DNA from: Paracyclopina nana
Lineage: Eukaryota; Arthropoda; Copepoda; Cyclopoida; Cyclopettidae
Reading direction: 5' to 3'
Assembly: GCA_019096065.1 (NCBI GenBank)
Contig: JAGUCH010000002.1
Span: 15,822,501 to 15,886,500, forward strand
Length of the DNA stretch: 64,000 nt
In this document: piece after piece, positions 32,785-47,700 of the stretch
Position numbering within the stretch: position 1 is the stretch's first letter
Layout of the letters: every line of letters starts with the position of its first letter
Program-made: the position numbers and the translations under genes
Notes under the pieces: generated by a model
Told to the model about the DNA's origin: nothing
Seen by the model: only the letters and a program-made list of their open reading frames with translations
Database searches by the model: none

Positions 32785-35700
32785 ATGTCTTTTTTCCGCC
32801 AATTGACCACAGGCATAAAGTTCGACAAAGCTAAATTCCGGCCAGAAGCTGAAAAATTTGGTCTCGTCAAGAAGGAGACTAAACTGGACAGCCATGAAGT
32901 GGAAACTGTTTCACTTGACGACGATTTCGTGCCCGATTCCAACTTGCCAACTCCCGAAGATTCTGAAGAGTCTGAAACTCATTCCGAAGACTCTGACAAC
33001 GAACATGAGCTCAAACTTCTTGGTGAGTGTTTTATGTGAAAGCCTGTTTATAGCAGAAAATCTAGGGAATCCGCAATTCACGTCAATCACGTTAAGAATG
33101 CTTCCTTCGTTGACGTTATATTTTAGATTGTGTCTCAAAATAAAATGCTATTGTAGTGCAATAAGCACATTATTCACGTTTAACGTTGCCTTCTCTCGAA
33201 AGCTGTGATTTAATAAGTTTAGCTTATTTCATTTACCACCGGCAGATACACAGACAATTTTAGAGAAAATGTCAACTTCTAAAAACAAAAATTCCAAATA
33301 TTTGTTTGGTAGTTTACGCATGTATCTTAACCACCGAAATTTGTGATTCTAAATCAATTGACACATCAACTTGCATGTTGTCCTAGGATTCCTGTATTAT
33401 GATGTTTTATGATTTTTTGACGTGCGCTCAATATGTTTCTTTTGATTTACTACATGGGTTTGGCTTGCTAGAGATATTTTGTTGGCAAAATATGGCTACT
33501 GTGAGGCCATTGAGGCTGCGTATTTTTCTGAAATGTCGTCGACACAATTTATTAGAGCTTGTAGCCATAAACTCGCCAGGCGAGGGATTCTCTTAAAGTA
33601 GGGCCTCTCCTCCCACGCAATAACCTGGTGCTCTCAAGTAAGAGCCATTTCAAGCTCTTTTCCACGGGGAGCCCAACACGGTAGGAAAACAAATATGTTT
33701 TCTATTTCGGAAAATATGTTATGTAATGTAGGGCTACAAATAGGTTTCTTCCTCATTTACATGTGTTGTGAAAGTTGGTGTGTTTTCCTATTTCCTATAA
33801 GTAATATCTTCTCAGTATGACATGTAGGCATTTTGTACTGCACGAGCTTTGACGTGACTCGGATGAAAAAAAAGCCCTCGTTTTTTCATATGGTTCATTT
33901 ACATCATTTCAGGCGACATATGCGTCAAGGATCAGAAGTCAGGCAAGAAGAAAACAAAAAAGAAAAAGAGCAAGCACGATTTGGCGCTTATGCTTCAAGA
34001 GAAAGTCAACAGGTTTCGCAATGTGCATCGCATCCATGTCAAAGGCTCTGACATTCCCAATCCAATTGATAGCTGGGACAAGCTCAAACAAAATTATGGC
34101 GTCTCCGAGGATCTCTTGGAAGTTTTGAAATCGTCATACGACAAGCCGACCCCCGTACAAATGCAAGCCATTCCTCTAATGCTCGAACGAAGGGAATCTC
34201 TCGTTTGTGCGCCAACCGGCTCTGGTAAGCTAATTAGTATCCTCACGTCGATACAAGACCTGACATGGATAATTCCTTGATCCTTAAGATAGATACTTAA
34301 ATTGCCTAGGTGGAATATTCCGTTAATCAATTTTGAGAGAACCTTTGTGAGCAAAGTCTCTAGGAATCCTGGGTCTCGTCCCTTGGGATGCTTCATAGCA
34401 ATTTGTAGTTGACATAAATTACGAAAACAGCTCATTTTCTTTATCTACGTCAGTCAGCAAATGCAGCCTAGGGCTCTGCTGAAGAAAGCTCTCTAAGTAA
34501 AACATGTGCCACTGACATCACAATAGCTGAAAGGACCACATATTTCTAAATCAAGATTTCCGTTGCATTTTTTCAAAGTGAAAGCTTCCTTTCCATTGGA
34601 ATAAAAAAGTCTTTTCTTTGCAGGCAAAACTGTGTCTTATTTGCTGCCTCTGATTCATCATCTGCGTGAGCCACGCAACAAGAAAGGATTCAGAGGCCTA
34701 ATTGTTGCCCCTACGCGTGAACTAGCCACCCAAATTTACAGAGAATGCCTCAAATTGTGTCAGCCTCGTAAATTAAGGCCCTTCATCATTGACAAGGTTG
34801 CAAAGAGTGCCAAGAAAATCAGCGGGCAAAAGTTGGACATTTTGGTGACAACCCCCAACAGACTCGTGTACATGATCAACAGTGAGGAAATCAGCCTCAA
34901 AAACGTCGAGTGGCTCATTGTGGACGAATCTGACAAACTCTTTGAAACTGTTGGCAAAGGAGAGAGCTCTTTCAGAGACCAGCTGGCAACAATCTACAGG
35001 TAATTGTTTCTTCTTCAGAATCATATTTGTCAAATTAAGAGGCTTTTTCTTTGTTCCCCTCTTCAAGAGCTTTGCAAAAAAATGGAAGCCGTCAATTTCT
35101 TAGGATTTCTTACTTTAAATAAATTAGGCAGCATACCCTATTCAGTATTTAGACATATGAGTGGGAAACCATAGCATATGCATTATATCTAGCCGGATAT
35201 ACTTACAGACGTAACCAGGGAAAAAGCAGATTTCTCACTCATTCCTGGCCCTTTTCGGATTTAGGCATCTGTGAGATCTTAATGTAAGCTTCTTTGGAAG
35301 ATTGCACTTTCGAATCACGGAAACCGGAATTAGTTGGGTGCAAAAGCCACATGTTGCATTTTTTGTGGCCCCTGCTGCTCTGCTTTCATAAGTAAAAGTT
35401 TCCCACTTGTGTTATCTTTTCGTGGCTAGCTTTGTGGTCCGCCTAAAATGCAAATATAGCTTAATGCTTTCTAAGACCGTCTAAGTTTTTTCATAAAAAT
35501 GCTACTTTTAAAATAAGTAGTGATGGAACGAGTTTCAGCTTGGCTTGAAAGCTTGAAGCTAAAACCCAGCTTGAGCTACATAAGCAAAAAGCTTGGGATC
35601 GCTCGAACCAAATTTTGAAAAGCTTGAAACCCAAAATATGCAAAGCTTGAAAAAGCTTGACACCAAATTTCAAAACTTTATCCATTTTTAATCAAAACAA

Positions 35701-38700
35701 AAAAAGGGCTGATTTTAAAATTAACAATTGCGTGAGGGAGTGAAGTACTTTTAAATCTAAGTTAAAGCTAATTCTGTCATTTGTTGCGCTTTTGGGGTAA
35801 TTTTGTCAAATCTGGTGACTAATCGCCATTTTTTATGTTAAAATACTAAAAAAGTGAAAAGCTTGAAAAAAGCTTGAAATGTAAAATTTGGAGCTTGAAA
35901 AAGCTTGGGATCGCTCGAACACTTTTCAAAAAGCTTGAAGCTTGATCAAGCTGAAAATTTCCGGCTCGTTCCATCACTAAAAATAAGCAAATTGATTTAT
36001 AAGTTGCATGCACTTCAACATCATGACCTTGCAAATTGAACAAAAAATGAATGGAGACACCTGAAACGTTTTAGGTTGCCTTTGAACTTGGATCCGGGCT
36101 CCCCTACTGAATTAATTCAAAGTTGGATTTGCGCTAGGCGACATCACGTCTGCTCTTGTTTTACGATTTTTTCTTTAGAAAATAAACTTGTAAGGTTGCT
36201 AGATTCGAAGCGCCATCTAGCGCGGCAACTAGAACAAATACATTTGGCATAGCTGCGTTACATAGATGATGAAAAATTGGCAACTGTTTGGCTTTTGGAG
36301 CGCTTGTGCCAAAAACCTCATTAATATGACATAATCTCAAGACAAAATGGCACCCTTTCAAGCCTTAAAACCACATGCAACTCACGCATATTTTCATTGT
36401 TGAAACCAAATTTTTCTAGCCTGGCTCCGCCGATCAGCCAATCAAATTGCAGCTTTTAATCACGTAACAAGTTTAGCGCCATCTAACGGAAAAGTTTGTC
36501 ACTCCTCTAGCTTATTACGTGAAACAAATATGCGGGCGCGCATGCAAAAAATCGAAAATATCATATTTGTATATTTGCCAGAGTTGTGCACAAATGTCGT
36601 GACTGTCATAAGATTTAAAGTTTCCAATGCAAAGAGTTTTGGCATTTCCCTGAAAAATATTGGGTATTCCTTTGAAGTTGCTTTTTCTTGTGCAATTTTC
36701 GCCATAAATTATCAGGCAACGACGAGCTTTTTTGGCGGGGGCCTCGCTTCAGTTCGCTACTGGAGCTACTTTGCAACTACGTGAAACATCTAGGTCGATG
36801 AACTATAAATAAGAGTAAATTGAGGAAAGTATTTGTGCAATGTCGTCGAGCAACTCACAAGTTTCGTTCAAGTCATTCTACGCTAACAAGTTCTTTCTCG
36901 AGGCCTTTTGGCAGTGTGCTATTTTGGGATTTTGCAAGTGCATTGTTGTGATATAGATAATGCTACCGCAATGCTACGTGAAGGCACTGATTTCGCCCAA
37001 GAGATGCTAAATGAGGCTTACATCTACTTTCTTAGATTGTTGATTAAGAATAGCGCGCATATATTACGTGCTGTTGCCAAGCACCAAACACAAAAGATCG
37101 GAAATTATTACCAGTATCAGGCGGAAAATGCAGCTTTACGCTTTTTAAGCACCAGCTCTATTTTAGAATATGTTTACCCCACTAATGTTTTGACCATGCT
37201 GGCAGTTGGTGAACAGTTGAAAATAATTTTATTTTTTTTCCTTTTTGCAGTTTGATTAACGGATTGCACTAGTAGTAAAGTTGTGACAAATAAGTTGCAC
37301 TTAAGAAAAAAGCAGCCGTAAATAAGTTTTTGTCTTTCAGCTGGGGCGGCGTGGTGCAATGACTTATCAACACGTTAATAATTGTTAGATAAGAAAATGC
37401 AACGAAATAAATTTAATGCCTTGAAAAACATGTTATAAATTGTTATTTAGCCAAAAATGAATTGAAATATAATTTTATTTTAAAAAACAGTCTTTTTAGG
37501 TTTTATTCCTTTAAAATACTCATAATAATGATGTAGTCGACCAGAGGAGACAGATATTTGTTTAATGTAGTCGTAATTGTATTTCAACTAAGAATTTTCT
37601 TTTTTTGCAATGCAATATTATTACCGTAAAAAAGTATTAATGGAATGTCATGAATAATAGCAGAAAAGATTGAATCAGAAACTTCAGTTGTTGTTTCTAT
37701 TGGCTTGTTCCTCGTCCAAGCTTGCCTGCTTTTCTTTAAGCTTCTTCAGTTCCTCCTCAAGCTCTTGCCGACGCTGTTCAACAGACTTTTTAATGCTGTC
37801 GTACTCCTTAAGTTGTCGAGCTTCTTCAGCCAGTTTTGCTTGCTGTTCCTCGAGCAACATTGCCTCGTGAATTGCCTCAGGTGTTATTAAGTCGGCCAAA
37901 ACACCGCACGATGGACCAGCAGTATTCATCAGCAGCTCCTCGATCGTGATGTTTCTGGTCTTTGCCTTAAAAAGGAAAAGGAATATTTCAATGATACGAT
38001 CAGTTAAAAGTCGTTATCATGGGCTTACAGGCGGAGGTTGGACATCAGGAGTTGCTGATTCTGAGGTTTCAGTCGAACCACCAATAACTGCTTTTTCAAG
38101 AAGACTAACTGAAGCAGAAGAACTTCCACTGACGGAAGTGGTTTGGTTGCTAACATCACCACCGTTGCTTTCATCATCTGTGGCATGATCAATTTCCTCA
38201 TGTTGCTACACGATAATTAATGAGATACATACATTGTAAATGCCTTTTTAAGTGTTTTATAATTTTCTTACCTGACCCTTGCGGTACCCAGTGACATATT
38301 CACATGGAAACTTCCTTGGACTAGGCACATAAGGTCGAGGACTTGGTCCAGAACCATAAGAGGGCGTGGCATGATGAGGAGTGGCCTGAAGAGGAGTTCC
38401 ACCACCAGCAACACCGGTAAATTCATTGAGCAGGTCATCCAAACGATTGACATATTCATCACAAACTTCTTTGTGCAAAGTTGCAAGCTGTGAATAAAAT
38501 AAATTGTAATTGATTTTATCAATGATTTCTTTCTTATAAAGCAGTTTTTACTTACATTAGGCAATGCGGGAACGTCCTCGTACTGCAATTCGTAGACATT
38601 TTTCCCGAGCGTATGTCCGGCAGCAATAATGATCTTGATAATGTCATGAACAGTCCAAATTTTGCCAGGGTGTGGCCCACGGATTGGATGGAAAACTTTT

Positions 38701-41700
38701 CCTTCCTCTGCAATTTCGTTGGCATCGCTCTCACTCTCGTTGCCATCATTTCCCTTTTCAGCTTGCCTTTGAGCATTTCTGTACTCTTTTCTCGTCTTCA
38801 ACTTTGCAGTGAACTCCTCAAGGCTGTCAGGCTTGACACGTTGATCCAAATCATGCTACAGGATAACACATTAGTATGCGCGAAATAAGTGGTTAAGACG
38901 ACTTACTGAATTGGCGCTGTACATTTCCATTGACATGTCGTACAATGCTTGAACAGCACTGTCGACACTGTCGGTCTTCCTAAATGCTCTTCTGTAGAAA
39001 GATGTCCTAGCATTTGTCATGGCCGTGGACAGTTTGTCTTTCACAATAGACATGTTCTCAAACACCTCTTGTTCACCAATTCGCCTGATGTTCCGCAGCC
39101 TTGGCACTAGCTTAAACTCAAGCATCCTCATGAGGCTTTGAGGAATTGTTCTCCTGTAGAATGCCACTTTGTCCAAACTGAAAACATTGTTAATAATGAA
39201 TTTTCATTTTTGCTATACAATTCGCTATCTTACTTGGTCGCATGCTTGTGGACTAAGTGCGCCATTGCGCAAGGAGTGAACATTTTCTTAGTCACAGATT
39301 TGGCGATGTAGTAGTCATACTCACTGACTACGCCATTGAAAAACGGAATGATCACGTAGACCAGAAGGTCTTGGACTAGCAGATTCGCAAAGAATACATC
39401 CATGCCCAATCCCATCAAATCCCATGGTAAGGGCCTTGAAATGATGCCAATGGCTCTGGCTTGCATACTGGTGGAAGCATTGGTTGCCTTCTCAAAATCA
39501 AGCTTGATTTGGCCAGTAGCTTTTGTGAAAGCGTCCACTTTCTCTTCAATTTTCTTGCACACAGCTAGCGTTCTCTGAAAGAGCAAGGCAATGTATAAAA
39601 CTTATTTTGATGTTTAAATCGTGTTACCAACCTCTCGTCCTTTTGGCCTCTCCTTTAGCTCAGCAATATCCTTCTCATATTGAGTAAGGAACGTCTTCCA
39701 CTCATTTTGAATGCCATCCAATGCAGGCTTGACTTTACTGTCGAAGAAGTCACTTAGTACTCGCTTGAACATGGCCTCCGTTTCCAAATTGGCAATTTTC
39801 TGCTTCACCTTCTCAAGAGTGATACTTTTCTCAACTGCAGACATGTCCTCGAAGGCTGTTGCAGTGTTATTGCCAGAAAGGGCACGCTCGATCACTGGCA
39901 CTTCAAGAGTGACGGTCTGTAAGGAATTAGCGATAATCGATTAATAAGTCAATAATAAGAAAATTCATTTTTACCTCTTCGACATTTTCGCCAGCGGCAT
40001 TGTCAGATGAGGACGACTCCACAAGATCCACGACATCAGCTGGCAATTCATCAGTCAATTGACTTGTAGCAGCCTCTGCTGTCTGACTTTCCTCAGCTTG
40101 TACTTGTTGGTAAGCAGGATTGGGCAAAACGACATTTTTGGCGGATGGCTTATCTTTCGGATTAGCAGCAGATTTCTTTCCCTGGCCCTTTCCTTTCTTG
40201 GACGACTTCACTGGGCTCTTCCTAAACGTGGATGCAACTTTGGTGCTTCGAGTTTTCACCCGTGATGTTGTTGCAGTCGTTGGCACCGCCTTTTCAACGG
40301 ACATCCGACTTTTCTTTGGAGTGTTCTGAAACTCCGATGAGGAGGAGTTTCCATCGTCATCCTCTTCGCCTCCAGTGACTGGCAACCTCTTCAATGACTT
40401 TGATCTGGTTGAAGGGCCCTTCCAGGTTGAGAAAACGAATTTCCCATTCGCCATTTTCTTTGGGTAGTCATATGCAACGAGAGCCTTTTCTGCATAGTTG
40501 TTGACCAAAGACGTTTTAATGGCCAATCTCGTTCCAATCTCGTATTTGCCGTGTAACTCCTTGTTGAGGGTTTTACAGATTGCCTGGATCCTGGTCAATT
40601 CCATTCCTAAAATGTGACAAAAGAATAATAACGACTGCATAAGATTTGTTCGATCACTTATTATTACCTTGCTCAATTCTGGCGAAAATTGAAAATTCGC
40701 GAATGTCGTCCCCATCCTGGTATTTGAATACCTTAAGCCTTGAGGGATTAGACAGGCAAATTGTGGGATCAAATGAAAGGATCTCGCTCAGCTTTTGGCC
40801 CTTTGGCGACGTCCAACTAGTGGGAATGTGCGTCACTGCCGGATTTTCTTTGAGGTAAATTACCACAAGTCGGTCGTAAACAGTCCCTGATATCTCATTT
40901 GGCAGTTCCATGACGGATGCAGCGGATATTTCACACTTAAACGATGTTTAAATTTATGGCGACTTTTTTAAGCGACCGTTAATTTAACCATTGGCGGTTT
41001 GGCGAGATTTTTCAATTTTTTGCAGCTGACGAAAAAATGAATAATAATGCACTCATTCATTTTGAATATTAATGTCATTTATTAAACGCAAATACAAAAT
41101 CATTGCATTTAAAAAAAATATGAAATATCTTATTTCTCACATGATCTTCGTTACATCAAATAATGTATAACTTAATGATTTTTTCGTTTCACTTATTTTC
41201 AGGTTGCGTGACACTTTTCATGTTGTTGCGAATTGTAAACAAAACGCCGCCATCATGTAAAGTGCAGAAATGGCGAAGAAAAAGCTTAAGCCAGTTTTTC
41301 GTCATGAAGGTCCAGCAGAGAGGAAAAGAAGGCAACGTGAGAAGGAGAAGGAAGCCAAAATTGAAAGTGAAAACGTGCGGCGCCTAGCAGAGCGTGAAAA
41401 ATTACTTCGTGAAAAACGCAATAATAACGAAAATGACGACGATCCAATACCGGGAACAAGCACCGATGCCATGAAAAGCCTGCTGATGAGCAAACTGTTC
41501 CCACAGTTGGCCAACACGTTAGTAAGAGGAAAAGCAGCCAAATATGCTGAAGCTTCTGAAACGCAACGTCTCCTTGACATGGCTGTCATAAAAATGTCTT
41601 CACGTGACTCCGACCTAGATGACGAAACTGACATTGACTGCCAAAATAATGAAAATGATTGTGTCTATGATGCTCAGGAACTGTTTGAAGGCGAAAGACT

Positions 41701-44700
41701 GCTTCAGTCAATGAAAGAGAAGAAGCAACCGAAAATCATCAATCCGTCACAAATTGAGTGCAATTACGATGATTTTGTCTTCTCTGATGAATATGGCAAC
41801 AGTACTGATGCTGACACCGATGATTGTGAGGCTCGCGAGGATGTGACTGACAAACATGGTGTCTACGACTTATTAAGGAAACCAGTCGTTCTTGATTCTG
41901 ACGAAAACTTTGATCTGCCAAGTGCCGATGTATCGGAAACTGAACGTGAAGGTGATGCAATGCACCTGGATCGCGACGCAATTGAAAACCTGGTCATGCC
42001 TGACGCTGACTTTGACTACCATGAAAATTCAGATGATGAAAAGGATAACGCTGAGAAAAAAACTGATGAAGCCATTGCAACTGACTTGCCAAGTGATCGC
42101 AATGAATTAGAAGTATCGATGCATGACCAAGTAAATCAAAACTAATTATTTCTATATACTAATGCATTAACACTCCTAACAACAATTATTCTTTTGCAGC
42201 CACAAAGTGAATCACTTCTTGCACCACTTCGAACTAGACGTCCATCTGATCATGATTCTGAGGAGGACGGCATTCCTAGCGACATTGAAGAAACTGATGT
42301 TGCAGTTGAGGATGACTTTTACACTTGTGATGAAGACGCACCTGATGACGAGGAAGGAACTGGTGGCAAGGTCAATGACGGTTTTGATCGTTACAGAAAC
42401 CTAAGGCACATGTCCAGAAGGCAATTTGAAGAAGAGTTTGCAAAAGATGCTTTGCTAATCACTGAAAATCAACGGTTTGACAGTTTGTACCAAAAGTACA
42501 TGGCACTTACGAACGCCTTAGCATTGGAGGAAACAGCTTGCGAGACAATGTGGAATTTCATAGTTGCTTCACAGAAGTATGCAATTGCAACTCACCTTGA
42601 TGTAAACGCATTAGTCACTTATCCTACAATGAGGAAACGCTTTGAGAAATTGGTTCCAAAGGTGCACATGATATATGAATTCTTAGACACAGAAACACAA
42701 GAAACAGAGTGCCATAACGGAGACAAGTTTCCTAGGAAAAAATTCCCACGTCCACGGTTCAAACTGATGAGTGAGTGGACTTATGCGTGCATTGATGAAG
42801 TGTATGACTTCCATGACTTAATACACGCTGATAAGTGTAAAAGCAGTGGTGAACAACAGCGGTGCATTGACATGTTTTTCGATGGTGTACCCTTGACCAA
42901 AAGTGGCGACGCATTCATGAATGTTTTATGTGTGAGATTCAGCATCTGCAAGGAAGTTTGGCCAATGGCTGTTCAAATCTATCGAAACGGAAAAAACACG
43001 GACATGCTAACACTCATAAAGAGAATCATTGATGAGTGTTTGAGGCTCAATATCATTATAAGGCGTTTTAATGGCGATTCACCGATGCGCTCGAAATTGA
43101 AATGCATGGTGCAACATAATGGCTATTTCAGCTGTGAAAGGTGCCTTGCTGTAGGAAAGTACGACAAATTGAAGCACAAGATGACTTACCCAGCCAATAC
43201 AATCAACTACAAGTTGCGCACAATGGATGAGTGGCGTGAAATAGCGACCAAACTGAAAGAAGACCCTAACGCATTGAGAAAAAGCAAGCGGTATGGCATA
43301 CAAGGATACAGTCCAATGCTAGATGTGCCTTATTTCGACATTATCAATGACTTTACAGTTGATCCAATGCATAATATCTCGTTGGGTCTCTGCAAACTGG
43401 TCCTATCGTTCACCCTAGAATTTCGAAAAACTGCCAAAAAAATGCCTGAAGCAGGCAGCGTTATCTCTGAGAAATTTGACAATTTGTGGATGAAAATGGA
43501 ATTGCCCAGTGAGTTTCCAAGGAGGCCGAGGTCAATGAGAGACAATTTTCAACACCTTAAAGCTGTGGAATTTCTGTCAATAATTGTTTGTGGATTTCAT
43601 CCTTTCTACTTGGCATTGGAGGGTCCCAGCTACAGATCGTTGAGGAAGCTGTGGATTTATTTCATCTGGATTGTCCGCATGGTGCTCATGAATGATACCT
43701 GGTATAAAAAGCGGATGAACAGTGCCAAAGCATTCACAGTTTCAAAAAAGTTCTACGAGCTATTTCAGAAGCAGTTCGGTGCAGGAGAATGTGTCTTCAA
43801 TGTGCACGCATTCAGCCACGTTTTTGAAGTGCGCAACATTGGCAGTTTAAGTCAATTTTCAGCTGTAATGTTTGAGGCCTTCTTCTCATTTGTGAAACGT
43901 GTGATTAAGCCAAACACATTATCGTTTGCAAAACAGTTCATGATCAAGGCATTCATTGCAAATATGCAGAAGCATGACTGTGACTACAAGGTGAAAATAT
44001 CAGCAAACGAGGGACCAAAGAGAGCCTGCAATAATCTGATAACAACCATTGATGGACAATTTTTTAAAGTGGTGGAAACGACTGATGACGGATACCAATG
44101 CAAACTCATTAGTACGTCGCGTTTAATCTACAATGAAGCAGTTGAACTAGACATGTCAGAGATTTTAGTCAAGAAAATAGCAGAATCAGCAGAACCAGAT
44201 CGAATATATTTTATTGAAAATGAGAAAGTAATGTGTAAAGCTGCTGTATGTGATAATATTGTTATGTCGGTGCCAAATGAAGCATTCATAGTTTAATAAA
44301 GTTGATTGGCAATTTTAAATAAGTTATTATTGACTTACGCTGCGTACCTCATCATTACAATTTCATTAAATTGATAAAAATCTCGACAATTTAGATATAT
44401 GCAATACGTTTCAGCCACTTAAACAGGATTTATTATTTTCCACTGCAACTCATGCATTGAAAACATGTTTATAATTCAATAAATAAGAATTATTGAAAAA
44501 TGGATTAATGTTATGTCTTATAAACTAATTAATAAGCCACTTATCAGCTATTTAAAAAATTGCGTTGCAGCAGTGGAAAAGCAGTGACAAAAAAATCTGT
44601 GCAATAAAGATAAGAAAAAATAAGTGACTTATTAACGCCAGCATCACCACTTATTTGATCATTTACTGTCAGCAGTGGAAAAACAGCATAAAAACAGTTA

Positions 44701-47700
44701 TGCACTTAAGCGGCGCTCACTTAGTGGGGTATCTCGGATCTTCCAAAATTCTACATGAATATTAATATCACATCGTGACTTCAATTGCGCAAAAAGCTTT
44801 TACAATTCGCTCATCGTCCAAGTAATCAGCTAAAGAGGCCTTATTTTCTGTAAGGCCCTTTGAAGGTTTTCACTCGTCTTATTATTTTACATGCTGTAAT
44901 GGCAGGCTTTCGAAGGGTATTTTTGGAATTTGAGCAGGCGAAAATTCCAATATTTTTTAATCTTTTTTTAATGTTGGTTTTTTTCGGGGATTGAGGAAAT
45001 CTAGCGGAAATTCGTGAGTGGAGCTAACCACGCAAGAATGTCTACTTGGTTTGCTCATTAAAATTAGATGCGAGTAAACAAACTCAAGCTGTTTTCCTTT
45101 CTGTTGTATGATTTTCCTGGTCTCTTGTCATGCTTATTATGTCAATTTTGCTCTATGAAGAAAAGCCCACTTGCAATGCTACTTTTACAAAATAACAGCG
45201 AAAGCTTTCTAATTGATTAGCAAAAGTTTCCTTTTGGGAAAAGTCAACAATTGATTCCATAAATTGGCACAATTGTACGTGGCCGATATTTTTAGTTACC
45301 TTCATTCATTGTTATCCCAACTGTTAATGAGTGAAAGGAACTGTTAAACTTTCACGAATAGCTAATGGAAATGAAGCAGCCTCATAAAATATTACATTAT
45401 GTGTAGGAGTCTTCATTTTAAAAAGAATGATGATAAAGTGATTTTTGTGGCTGGATGAACGTCAGGCTGAAAAATGGACATACGAGCAACTCAATTATTT
45501 TTTTTCTTTGCCTCAAAGGAGATAAGAAGGGAAATAAACTCCTATCAAAGGAAGCAGCTAATAGATTCTTCTGGAAGTGCTAAAAATGAGCTCCAAAGGG
45601 TCATTTCGTTTGAGAATTTATATATATTGTTGCTTGGTATCGCATTTTCTTTCATCTCAATCCAGGAACATTTTTACACGAATGGTATGAAAAAAAGAAG
45701 TTTGTTGACAGCAGCAGTTTGAAAATTGTGCATAATTTTTTGAAAGCTGAATTGTTTGTTTTTCATTTATGATAATTGCCCACCAAAACAATCCTTGAGA
45801 GAGCTTTGCTGCGGTTTTTTCACTAATAAAATTGACAATGTTTTAATGATACCTTGCTATTTGTGCTGAATTGGCTTGTTCAATGTGGCTTCGTAGAACA
45901 CTTGACCTATTCCTAGAATTACTTTCCTGCAATCGACAGTTGATGATGCTTATTTGAATCGCTTCCACTTCTCCTTGGTTTTTTACATCCTTCCACAAGA
46001 TGAACTAAAAAAATCATTAAATTTCATTAGAATTTTCTCGCAACAACAAAAAAATTAATGTTCAAAAGCTTAGTTTGAGCCAAATGTCCACTGAGCCAAT
46101 TCAAAATAAAATCATAATATTCAGAAAAAAAGTCCTATTCGAGTGATGCTGGTAGGATGAAAAATTCACTATGTAGCATGCCTGCATTGTTATTTTGGAT
46201 GTGATACATCAAAGGTTGGAGAGGCCATACATCTTTTTCATGTATTTCTACGCATCTAAAGAAACTGGATGCTTGGGATTGACAGCATTTTCTTGCGCAA
46301 CCTGCTCTTACATTTTCGCCGTGAATTCAAAGCAAAAAACCACAGTATATACAGTCTGACCGTTCAAAATTGGACGGTGCGGGAATCAAAAGTTTGTGTT
46401 ATGATTTCATGAATTTTGAGGCTTAATGGGTATCGTTGGAAAGCTTAAACCTTTGGACATCTTTTTTGTTTTCTGACAAAATTAAAAATATTTTTATGAA
46501 TTCCGCTATAGGAAAATATAAATGATGCATCAGTTTGTTCGTGACAATTTACTGGGTTGCCTTGCGAAAATTGAATTTTCCCGGGTTTTTCCCGTTTAAA
46601 TCGATTTTTTCTATTTCTAAAAAAAAGATGGAAAAAGGCTCAATCTTTCCAACGATATCATTTAAAAGTCCTGTATATATTGAATTTGTGACAAAAAGTT
46701 TAGATTCCCGTACCGTCCAATTTTGAACGGTCAGACTGTATATGAATTATTCAAGAACTCATTAAAAGCGATCCGAAATGTACCTTCATGTCAAAAAGAT
46801 TTTCATTAGATGAAACCACCGTGAAAAAGGTCTTTTAGGCGCACAATTACCGAGACTTTCGTCATTTCTTCATCTTCTCCTTCTATTCCTCTTTTGGAAG
46901 CTCCTGCTACGTTGTAAATTCCATTTTATTTTCAGGGCTTGCAGCGAAGGCGATGGGCAGGTTCGACGTGCCTTCTTTAGTGCCACTCTCCCTCCGGATG
47001 TGGAAGAATGGTGCTCCTTGAACCTGGACAATGTTGCCTCAGTGACCATAGGAGAAAGACATGCAGCCACTGACACCATTGAGCAATCTCTGGTCTACAC
47101 TGGCACCGAAAAGGGCAAGCTTTTGGCCTTTCGCCAGCTGATTGAAAGAGGCGGCCTCAAGCCACCTGTCTTGGTGTTTGTGCAAGAAAAGGATCGTGCC
47201 AAAGAATTGTACTCTGAGCTCATCAAGGAGAAAATCCACGTGGATGTCATTCACTCTGAAAGGTCGCAGCTGCAGCGGGACAACACTGTCAAGGCATTTC
47301 GCGCGGGCCACATTTGGGTCTTGATTTGCACTGAGCTCATGGGCCGAGGCATCGATTTCAAGGTGAGACAGATGGCAGCAGCAGCATCTCTTCTTTTTCT
47401 GGCCAAACTGCCAAAGTGTAACTAGATTTCGATGATGGATAAGGTCAGTCAGGCTGTCAGGTTTTTGAGAGACAGCTGCTGCATTTGATGAGAGTGGAAG
47501 AAGGATCTTTTTTTTTAGGATAAAATGTAAAGCATGGTTTGCTTGTACTCACCATCGTTTCTCGTTTTCTTCAATTACGTTTCTGTCCCTAAACGTTGTA
47601 AAGTGTCTAGCTGCTTCTAGAGTGCGCGTACATGTTTCTGAAGGCAGAAGAGAGCCTGCAAAAAGCAGAAACAACATCTTCTCACTGCCATACCTATCGA

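Follow-up and report, generated by a model that had tools for sequence, protein, structure and literature searches.

What is a nine-exon gene doing inside a DNA transposon, where it points away from the transposase, and what could its product contribute? The question is raised by a 64,000-nucleotide stretch of the copepod Paracyclopina nana, here called the window (G000:C2:15822501-15886500; the genome is assembled as 91.95 Mb in 10 contigs), in which a preliminary description had reported such a gene within a CACTA-like element. We conclude that this accessory gene is a standing second gene of the transposon, inherited with the transposase, and that the element lineage is an old and recently mobile one of the animal CMC (CACTA/EnSpm-Mirage-Chapaev) type. 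By analogy with plant elements, the accessory protein is probably (at roughly 0.57) a TnpA-like partner of the CMC transposase that binds the element ends, encoded here by a separate, divergent gene.

The association of the two genes is seen from both sides. A tblastn search with the accessory protein gave at least 105 rows (50 of 453 candidates were scored), which were grouped into 28 loci including the window. Orthologues without a neighbouring transposase had been named in the preliminary description as the mark of a host gene; a transposase of the same kind adjoins the accessory gene at 26 of the 28 loci. A transposase row lies within ~5 kb at 23 of them, and at L029, L031 and L038 the transposase was seen on inspection, the copies at L031 and L038 being split over several frames or pieces. 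At L036 and L037, the 5.8 kb examined on the side where a transposase would be expected yielded none, and the gene next to L037 (C9:691059) contains two stop codons within a one-exon match. Seen from the transposase, the accessory gene stands on the opposite strand in all 20 regions fetched around transposases (the 17 best-scoring rows after that of the window and three lower ones, which is not a random sample). It is also present at L030, of the 31-36% transposase class, where the accessory similarity is weak and lies in the N-terminal domain (best E 9e-10). Since all 20 fetched transposase regions carry the gene, the earlier suggestion of a recently captured host sequence finds no support. 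The accessory and transposase trees of 18 loci have 12 of 15 splits in common; the conflicts mostly carry low or moderate support, apart from one transposase split at 0.955 and one accessory split at 0.926. Distances in the two proteins correlate at 0.93 (0.92 without near-identical copies), and none of 5000 permutations gave a correlation as high.

In the window, both genes are enclosed by a complete element of 7,553 bp (37177-44729) with inverted ends CCCCACTAA and a TA duplication, its edges reading TA, CCCCACTAA ... TTAGTGGGG, TA. The two genes begin 358 bp from each other, at start codons that point in opposite directions, which agrees with the orientation first described. An 11-bp match between flanks of this size is not rare by chance (five such were listed), and the proof of the element ends therefore rests on relatives; the right end of the window element, used as a DNA query, found only itself. 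Among 21 regions (the window and the 20 fetched), 15 elements were delimited, 14 of them by CCC..GGG ends and the other, L021, by one variant end that was placed with the help of short elements. Complete elements containing the gene thus exist elsewhere, as had been proposed for checking: equal 2-bp flanks are found at 14 of the 15 (AT, AA, TT, GT, AG, TG, TC, GA and TA among them), the exception being L023, with equal 16-bp ends and unequal flanks. L011, L017, L018, L027 and L028 showed one end in the fetched stretch (the other end of L011 and L027 lies just beyond it) and L024 none; the weak end pairs of L017, L024 and L027 have unequal flanks. Full elements are 7.55-8.06 kb long. The lineage of L023 and L025 has different ends, CCCAGCGAACCCTTTT, with the two-gene layout unchanged.

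Near-identical two-gene copies occur at different sites (L013/L014, L016/L017/L018, L019/L020 and L009/L026; their accessory protein models are 98.8-99.6% identical), a sign that the two genes have recently moved together as one unit. Across the genome, 73 matches to the 14-base end CCCCACTAAGTGTT were counted (control, 0), and its inverted pairs include 17 at 1.0-1.7 kb, eight of exactly 1,353 bp, and nine at 7.6-8.1 kb. All four short elements that were fetched have perfect ends of 14-15 bp and equal 2-bp flanks, and their longest stop-free frames measure 67-110 amino acids. In sequence they correspond to the ends of full-length copies of the L019-L021 or L028/L009 types, three of them also to a stretch at ~5.6-6.0 kb of those loci, and two hold tiny gene remnants (E 0.003 and 0.007). 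These features would be explained by internal deletion of full copies and movement in trans, and suggest that a substrate needs no more than the element ends.

The transposase gene of the window has two exons and encodes 985 amino acids, or 979 with an alternative donor. Residues D229, D294, C313-x2-C316, H537-x3-H541 and E560 are invariant in all 12 aligned transposases, a selection from the 21 in hand. Judged by these residues, with the first catalytic D chosen by inference, the transposase has the CMC signature, that is, a DDE triad in which C(2)C and H(3-4)H separate the second D from the E (PMC12730594, PMC4592977). The transposase exon of the window matched no Pfam family, and Transposase_21 (PF02992) in particular was found neither there, up to E=5, nor in 12 transposase copies, up to E=10. 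A genome-wide search for this family gave nothing in the window genome but also nothing in any of 14 control genomes, so that its negative carries no weight. A Tricorn_C1 match (E 0.0034), seen in two of 12 transposases and absent from that of the window, was taken as noise. Among the best candidates scored, relatives of the transposase account for at least 69 tblastn rows in the genome, down to 31% identity. The ends are of the TRC type, with a CCC start and a 2-bp duplication in 14 of the 15 delimited elements, L023 excepted. SmTRC1 and the other animal TRC elements (Schistosoma, Aedes, Tribolium) likewise combine terminal inverted repeats starting with CCC, 2-bp duplications and a CACTA-type transposase (PMC1636069). 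SmTRC1 differs in that alternative splicing of its transcripts gives rise to its extra proteins, and the available text of that report describes no divergent second gene.

The accessory gene, on the minus strand at 40911..37684, consists of nine exons with 915 codons and a stop, as first modelled. All eight introns are GT..AG and 51-68 nt long; seven contain an in-frame stop, and intron 6 (68 nt) instead causes a frameshift. A spliced aligner applied to 20 loci, which recovered the window gene exactly as a control, found the same exon skeleton in the relatives. With the window counted in, the 341-nt exon 4 is present in 16 of 21 models and the 271-nt exon 5 also in 16 of 21; the remaining models have seemingly fused exons, length differences of a few nucleotides (L021, L028) or a copy that has apparently decayed. 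The accessory proteins of the relatives are 23-49% identical to that of the window, and the skeleton is largely retained down to 23% identity. Because the skeleton is common to related loci, the gene is real and not a product of chance, and together with selection it rules out a chance open reading frame or splice artefact. The statement that a gene so rich in introns is uncommon in a DNA transposon fails for CACTA elements, as maize tnpA has 11 exons (PMC2613891). In the very divergent element L029 (L029:4149-6044), the accessory gene has a 631-amino-acid stop-free frame spanning several exons of the other copies, and most introns seem to have been lost.

As judged from codon comparisons, the accessory gene is under long-term purifying selection, in line with the earlier claim: synonymous sites are saturated and the protein is retained. 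The figures come from the best 34 of 210 pairs. For pairs at 54-74% identity, the rate of nonsynonymous substitution (dN) is 0.21-0.41, and the synonymous rate (dS) either lies past the range of the formula or, in four pairs, two of them not independent, is 2.5-3.2. These four have dN/dS ratios of 0.11-0.16, and six near-identical pairs give 0.26-0.77 on few changes.

The conserved positions of the protein fall mostly in an N-terminal domain (~1-160) and a core (~385-730). Of the layout first proposed, with an N-terminal domain, a basic linker and a C-terminal coiled coil, the N-terminal domain is conserved, and a basic linker separates it from the core in all 21 models, with a highest net charge of +8 to +18 per 60 amino acids. 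Most models also end in a charged, coiled-coil-like tail, which was not recovered in L018 and L023-L025. The protein had been said to contain no recognisable domain, and our searches agree. Pfam, queried with the window protein, nine N-terminal pieces and seven core pieces, returned weak scattered matches (best E 0.027, in one of nine members), and the PDB, queried with a single sequence and two profiles, returned no credible relative (best E 0.36); a known-domain identity was rejected on these results. Pattern scans of viral and bacterial/archaeal contigs found no relatives, and these collections, not made for animal genomes, are mute on rarity.

Repeats were counted in the 350 bp at each element end, against shuffled controls. 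In 12 of 13 elements, or about nine of ten independent lineages (L009/L026, L013/L014 and L019/L020 being near-identical), ACTGC and/or ATAAGT exceeded all 200 shuffles. ACTGC reaches 18-20 copies in L009, L010, L012 and L026, against 1.4-2.5 after shuffling, and 9-16 copies in L013, L014, L015 and L022, and ATAAGT reaches 11-16 copies in L016, L019 and L020, against 0.7-0.9. The ends of the window element hold 6 ACTGC and 7 ATAAGT; L025 has a different end motif, AAGTACTT, in 3 copies. An unbiased test on the commonest 6-mer exceeded all 100 shuffles in nine of the 13 (L009, L010, L012, L015, L016, L019, L020, L022 and L026). When density was measured by region in 11 elements, eight had the strong motif 2.4 to ~11 times denser in the mean of the two ends than in the central gap, the smallest single-end contrast among these being that of L012 (12.6 vs 7.2 per kb in the centre). 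At both ends, densities of 10-26 per kb were found in L009, L010, L012, L013, L015, L016, L019 and L026, and ATAAGT stands at 1.1-1.6 per kb in the central gap. The short element L035 has 8 + 8 ACTGC in its two 350-bp ends and zero between. Both genes presumably start centrally, and the end clusters would therefore seem to serve transposition, not transcription.

Such an arrangement is known from plants. In maize Spm, transposition requires, besides the transposase, the protein TNPA, which binds subterminal repeats (PMC2613891). En/Spm, with TNPA and TNPD, and Antirrhinum Tam1, with TNP1, resemble the Paracyclopina element by description, in that a transposase is combined with a second multi-exon product and the subterminal repeats are clustered and differ between families; the second proteins of plant CACTA families are reported to have no sequence similarity to each other (PMC2613891). 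The second product of Spm is spliced from the transcription unit of the transposase, whereas the second gene of Paracyclopina is separate and on the opposite strand. The two-gene divergent layout itself has a fungal precedent in Sly1-1, a CMC element of Neurospora crassa with a transposase and a divergent gene of undescribed function that apparently move together (PMC4592977); it is longer, at 11.5 kb, and its gene NCU09968 was compared by description only. The two-gene PIF/Harbinger elements belong to another superfamily, and their Myb/SANT partner both contacts the transposase and binds a subterminal motif of 9 bp (PMC9710019); Pfam searches of the accessory proteins gave no match to a Myb/SANT/MADF domain.

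By this comparison, the accessory protein would bind the short repeats, specific to each family, that lie within the two element ends, would bring these ends together and would load or position the DDE transposase. Among the options of the preliminary description, a TnpA-like terminus-binding partner is the best fit, given the end repeats and the co-inheritance; the DNA binding itself we infer, together with self-assembly through the tail and contact with the transposase. More tentatively, and at less than even odds, the accessory protein may found a new DNA-binding family that reads the repeats of each lineage, with protein and repeats coevolving into some twenty parallel, mutually insulated systems.

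Several observations weigh against end binding by the accessory protein. The transposase itself could be the reader of the end repeats. ACTGC and ATAAGT were picked after inspecting the sequences, so that the shuffle counts are descriptive, and the 6-mer test was failed by L013, L014 and the window element (7 vs up to 10 in the shuffles), with L025 tied. The central gap also holds ACTGC, at 4.5-7.2 per kb in the seven ACTGC elements measured, and the right end of L022, at 5.7 per kb, is barely above its centre at 4.5 (the other end has 17.1). Finally, a DNA-binding domain was recognised neither in Pfam nor in the PDB, with single sequences or profiles.

The alternative that survives best, although we regard it as unlikely, is an anti-silencing factor resembling the VANC proteins of Arabidopsis VANDAL elements, which are sequence-specific anti-silencing proteins (PMC10398659, PMC5735166); the protein would then bind short repeats to lift host silencing and not to pair ends. 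As would suit such a role, conservation is lower in the accessory proteins than in the transposases, and, of the seven ACTGC elements measured, six (all but L022) have the motif at a higher density in the centre than in either gene body. However, the strong clusters are found at the outermost ends, past both stop codons, and short elements without an expressible gene retain them, as in L035.

A slightly less probable reading is an adaptor for nuclear import, chromatin or target choice that binds the transposase and not the element ends. This would accord with the basic linker and the charged tail, and the Myb-like partner of PIF/Harbinger takes its transposase to the nucleus (PMC9710019), but the family-specific end repeats would be left unexplained unless the transposase reads them. 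A self-regulator or repressor limiting transposition is improbable: TNPA also regulates the activity of its own element (PMC2613891, PMC1636069), yet a pure repressor should be easily lost from selfish copies, and the gene is present in every fetched region and at L030. A host gene beside which a transposon landed by chance is hardly credible and can be set aside, since its intron-rich, host-like structure and the lone loci L036 and L037 stand against the transposase at 26 of 28 loci, equal flanks outside both genes and largely congruent trees.

Features of the element in the window (positions are those of the window)
Feature	Position	Strand	Evidence and remarks
Two-gene CMC (CACTA/EnSpm, animal TRC type) transposon	37177..44729	.	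Terminal inverted repeats, TA duplication, 14 related elements delimited alike
Left target-site duplication TA	37175..37176	.	End comparison
Left terminal inverted repeat CCCCACTAA	37177..37185	+	End comparison
Left subterminal noncoding region, ATAAGT + ACTGC repeats	37186..37683	.	Motif counts
Accessory exon 9	37684..37965	-	Charged, coiled-coil-like C-terminal tail and stop; gene model, charge scan
Accessory exon 8	38029..38205	-	Spliced models
Accessory exon 7	38272..38487	-	Spliced models
Accessory exon 6	38556..38855	-	Conserved core; spliced models, alignment
Accessory exon 5	38907..39177	-	271 nt; spliced models
Accessory exon 4	39234..39574	-	341 nt, strongly conserved core; spliced models, alignment
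Accessory exon 3	39632..39916	-	Spliced models
Accessory exon 2	39975..40606	-	Second half of N-terminal domain and basic linker; spliced models, charge scan
Accessory exon 1	40668..40911	-	First half of conserved N-terminal domain; spliced models
Central 358-bp region between divergent genes, presumed shared promoter	40912..41269	.	Position only
Transposase exon 1	41270..42130	+	Gene model
Transposase exon 2, DDE domain	42200..44296	+	D229, D294, C313xxC316, H537xxxH541, E560 (numbering: window:42197-44293)
Right subterminal noncoding region, ATAAGT + CCACTGC repeats	44297..44720	.	Motif counts
Right terminal inverted repeat TTAGTGGGG	44721..44729	-	End comparison
Right target-site duplication TA	44730..44731	.	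End comparison

The element sits in an intron of ~11.9 kb (35000-46935, boundaries set by eye) of what we take to be a DEAD-box helicase gene of the DDX52/ROK1 type. This intron has received at least three different DNA transposons. A short element of 462 bp (35518-35979) has inverted ends TAGTGATGGAACGAG and the 8-bp duplication AAAATAAG on both sides, and is presumably hAT-like, as classed from its ends and duplication length. Another of 387 bp (46352-46738) has inverted ends CAGTCTGACCGTTCAAAATTGGACGGT with TATA on both sides and is presumably Tc1/mariner-like. The genome also has arrays of TTAGG, a repeat commonly found at arthropod telomeres; a 25-base pattern matched them 9,278 times, overlaps included.

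In the searchable literature, few descriptions exist of the second proteins of animal CACTA/EnSpm elements. For SmTRC1, the available text of the report states that no relatives of its extra proteins were found (PMC1636069), and we found no divergent second gene of an animal CACTA element in the open-licence papers searched, Repbase entries lying outside the search. Coevolution of TNPA-like proteins and subterminal repeats is an idea already raised in the literature (PMC2613891). The genome of P. nana offers about twenty distinct two-gene lineages, estimated as the 28 loci minus near-identical copies, several of them with recent copies. As these lineages differ in their end repeats and second proteins, they make the coevolution of TNPA-like proteins with subterminal repeats directly testable within one genome.

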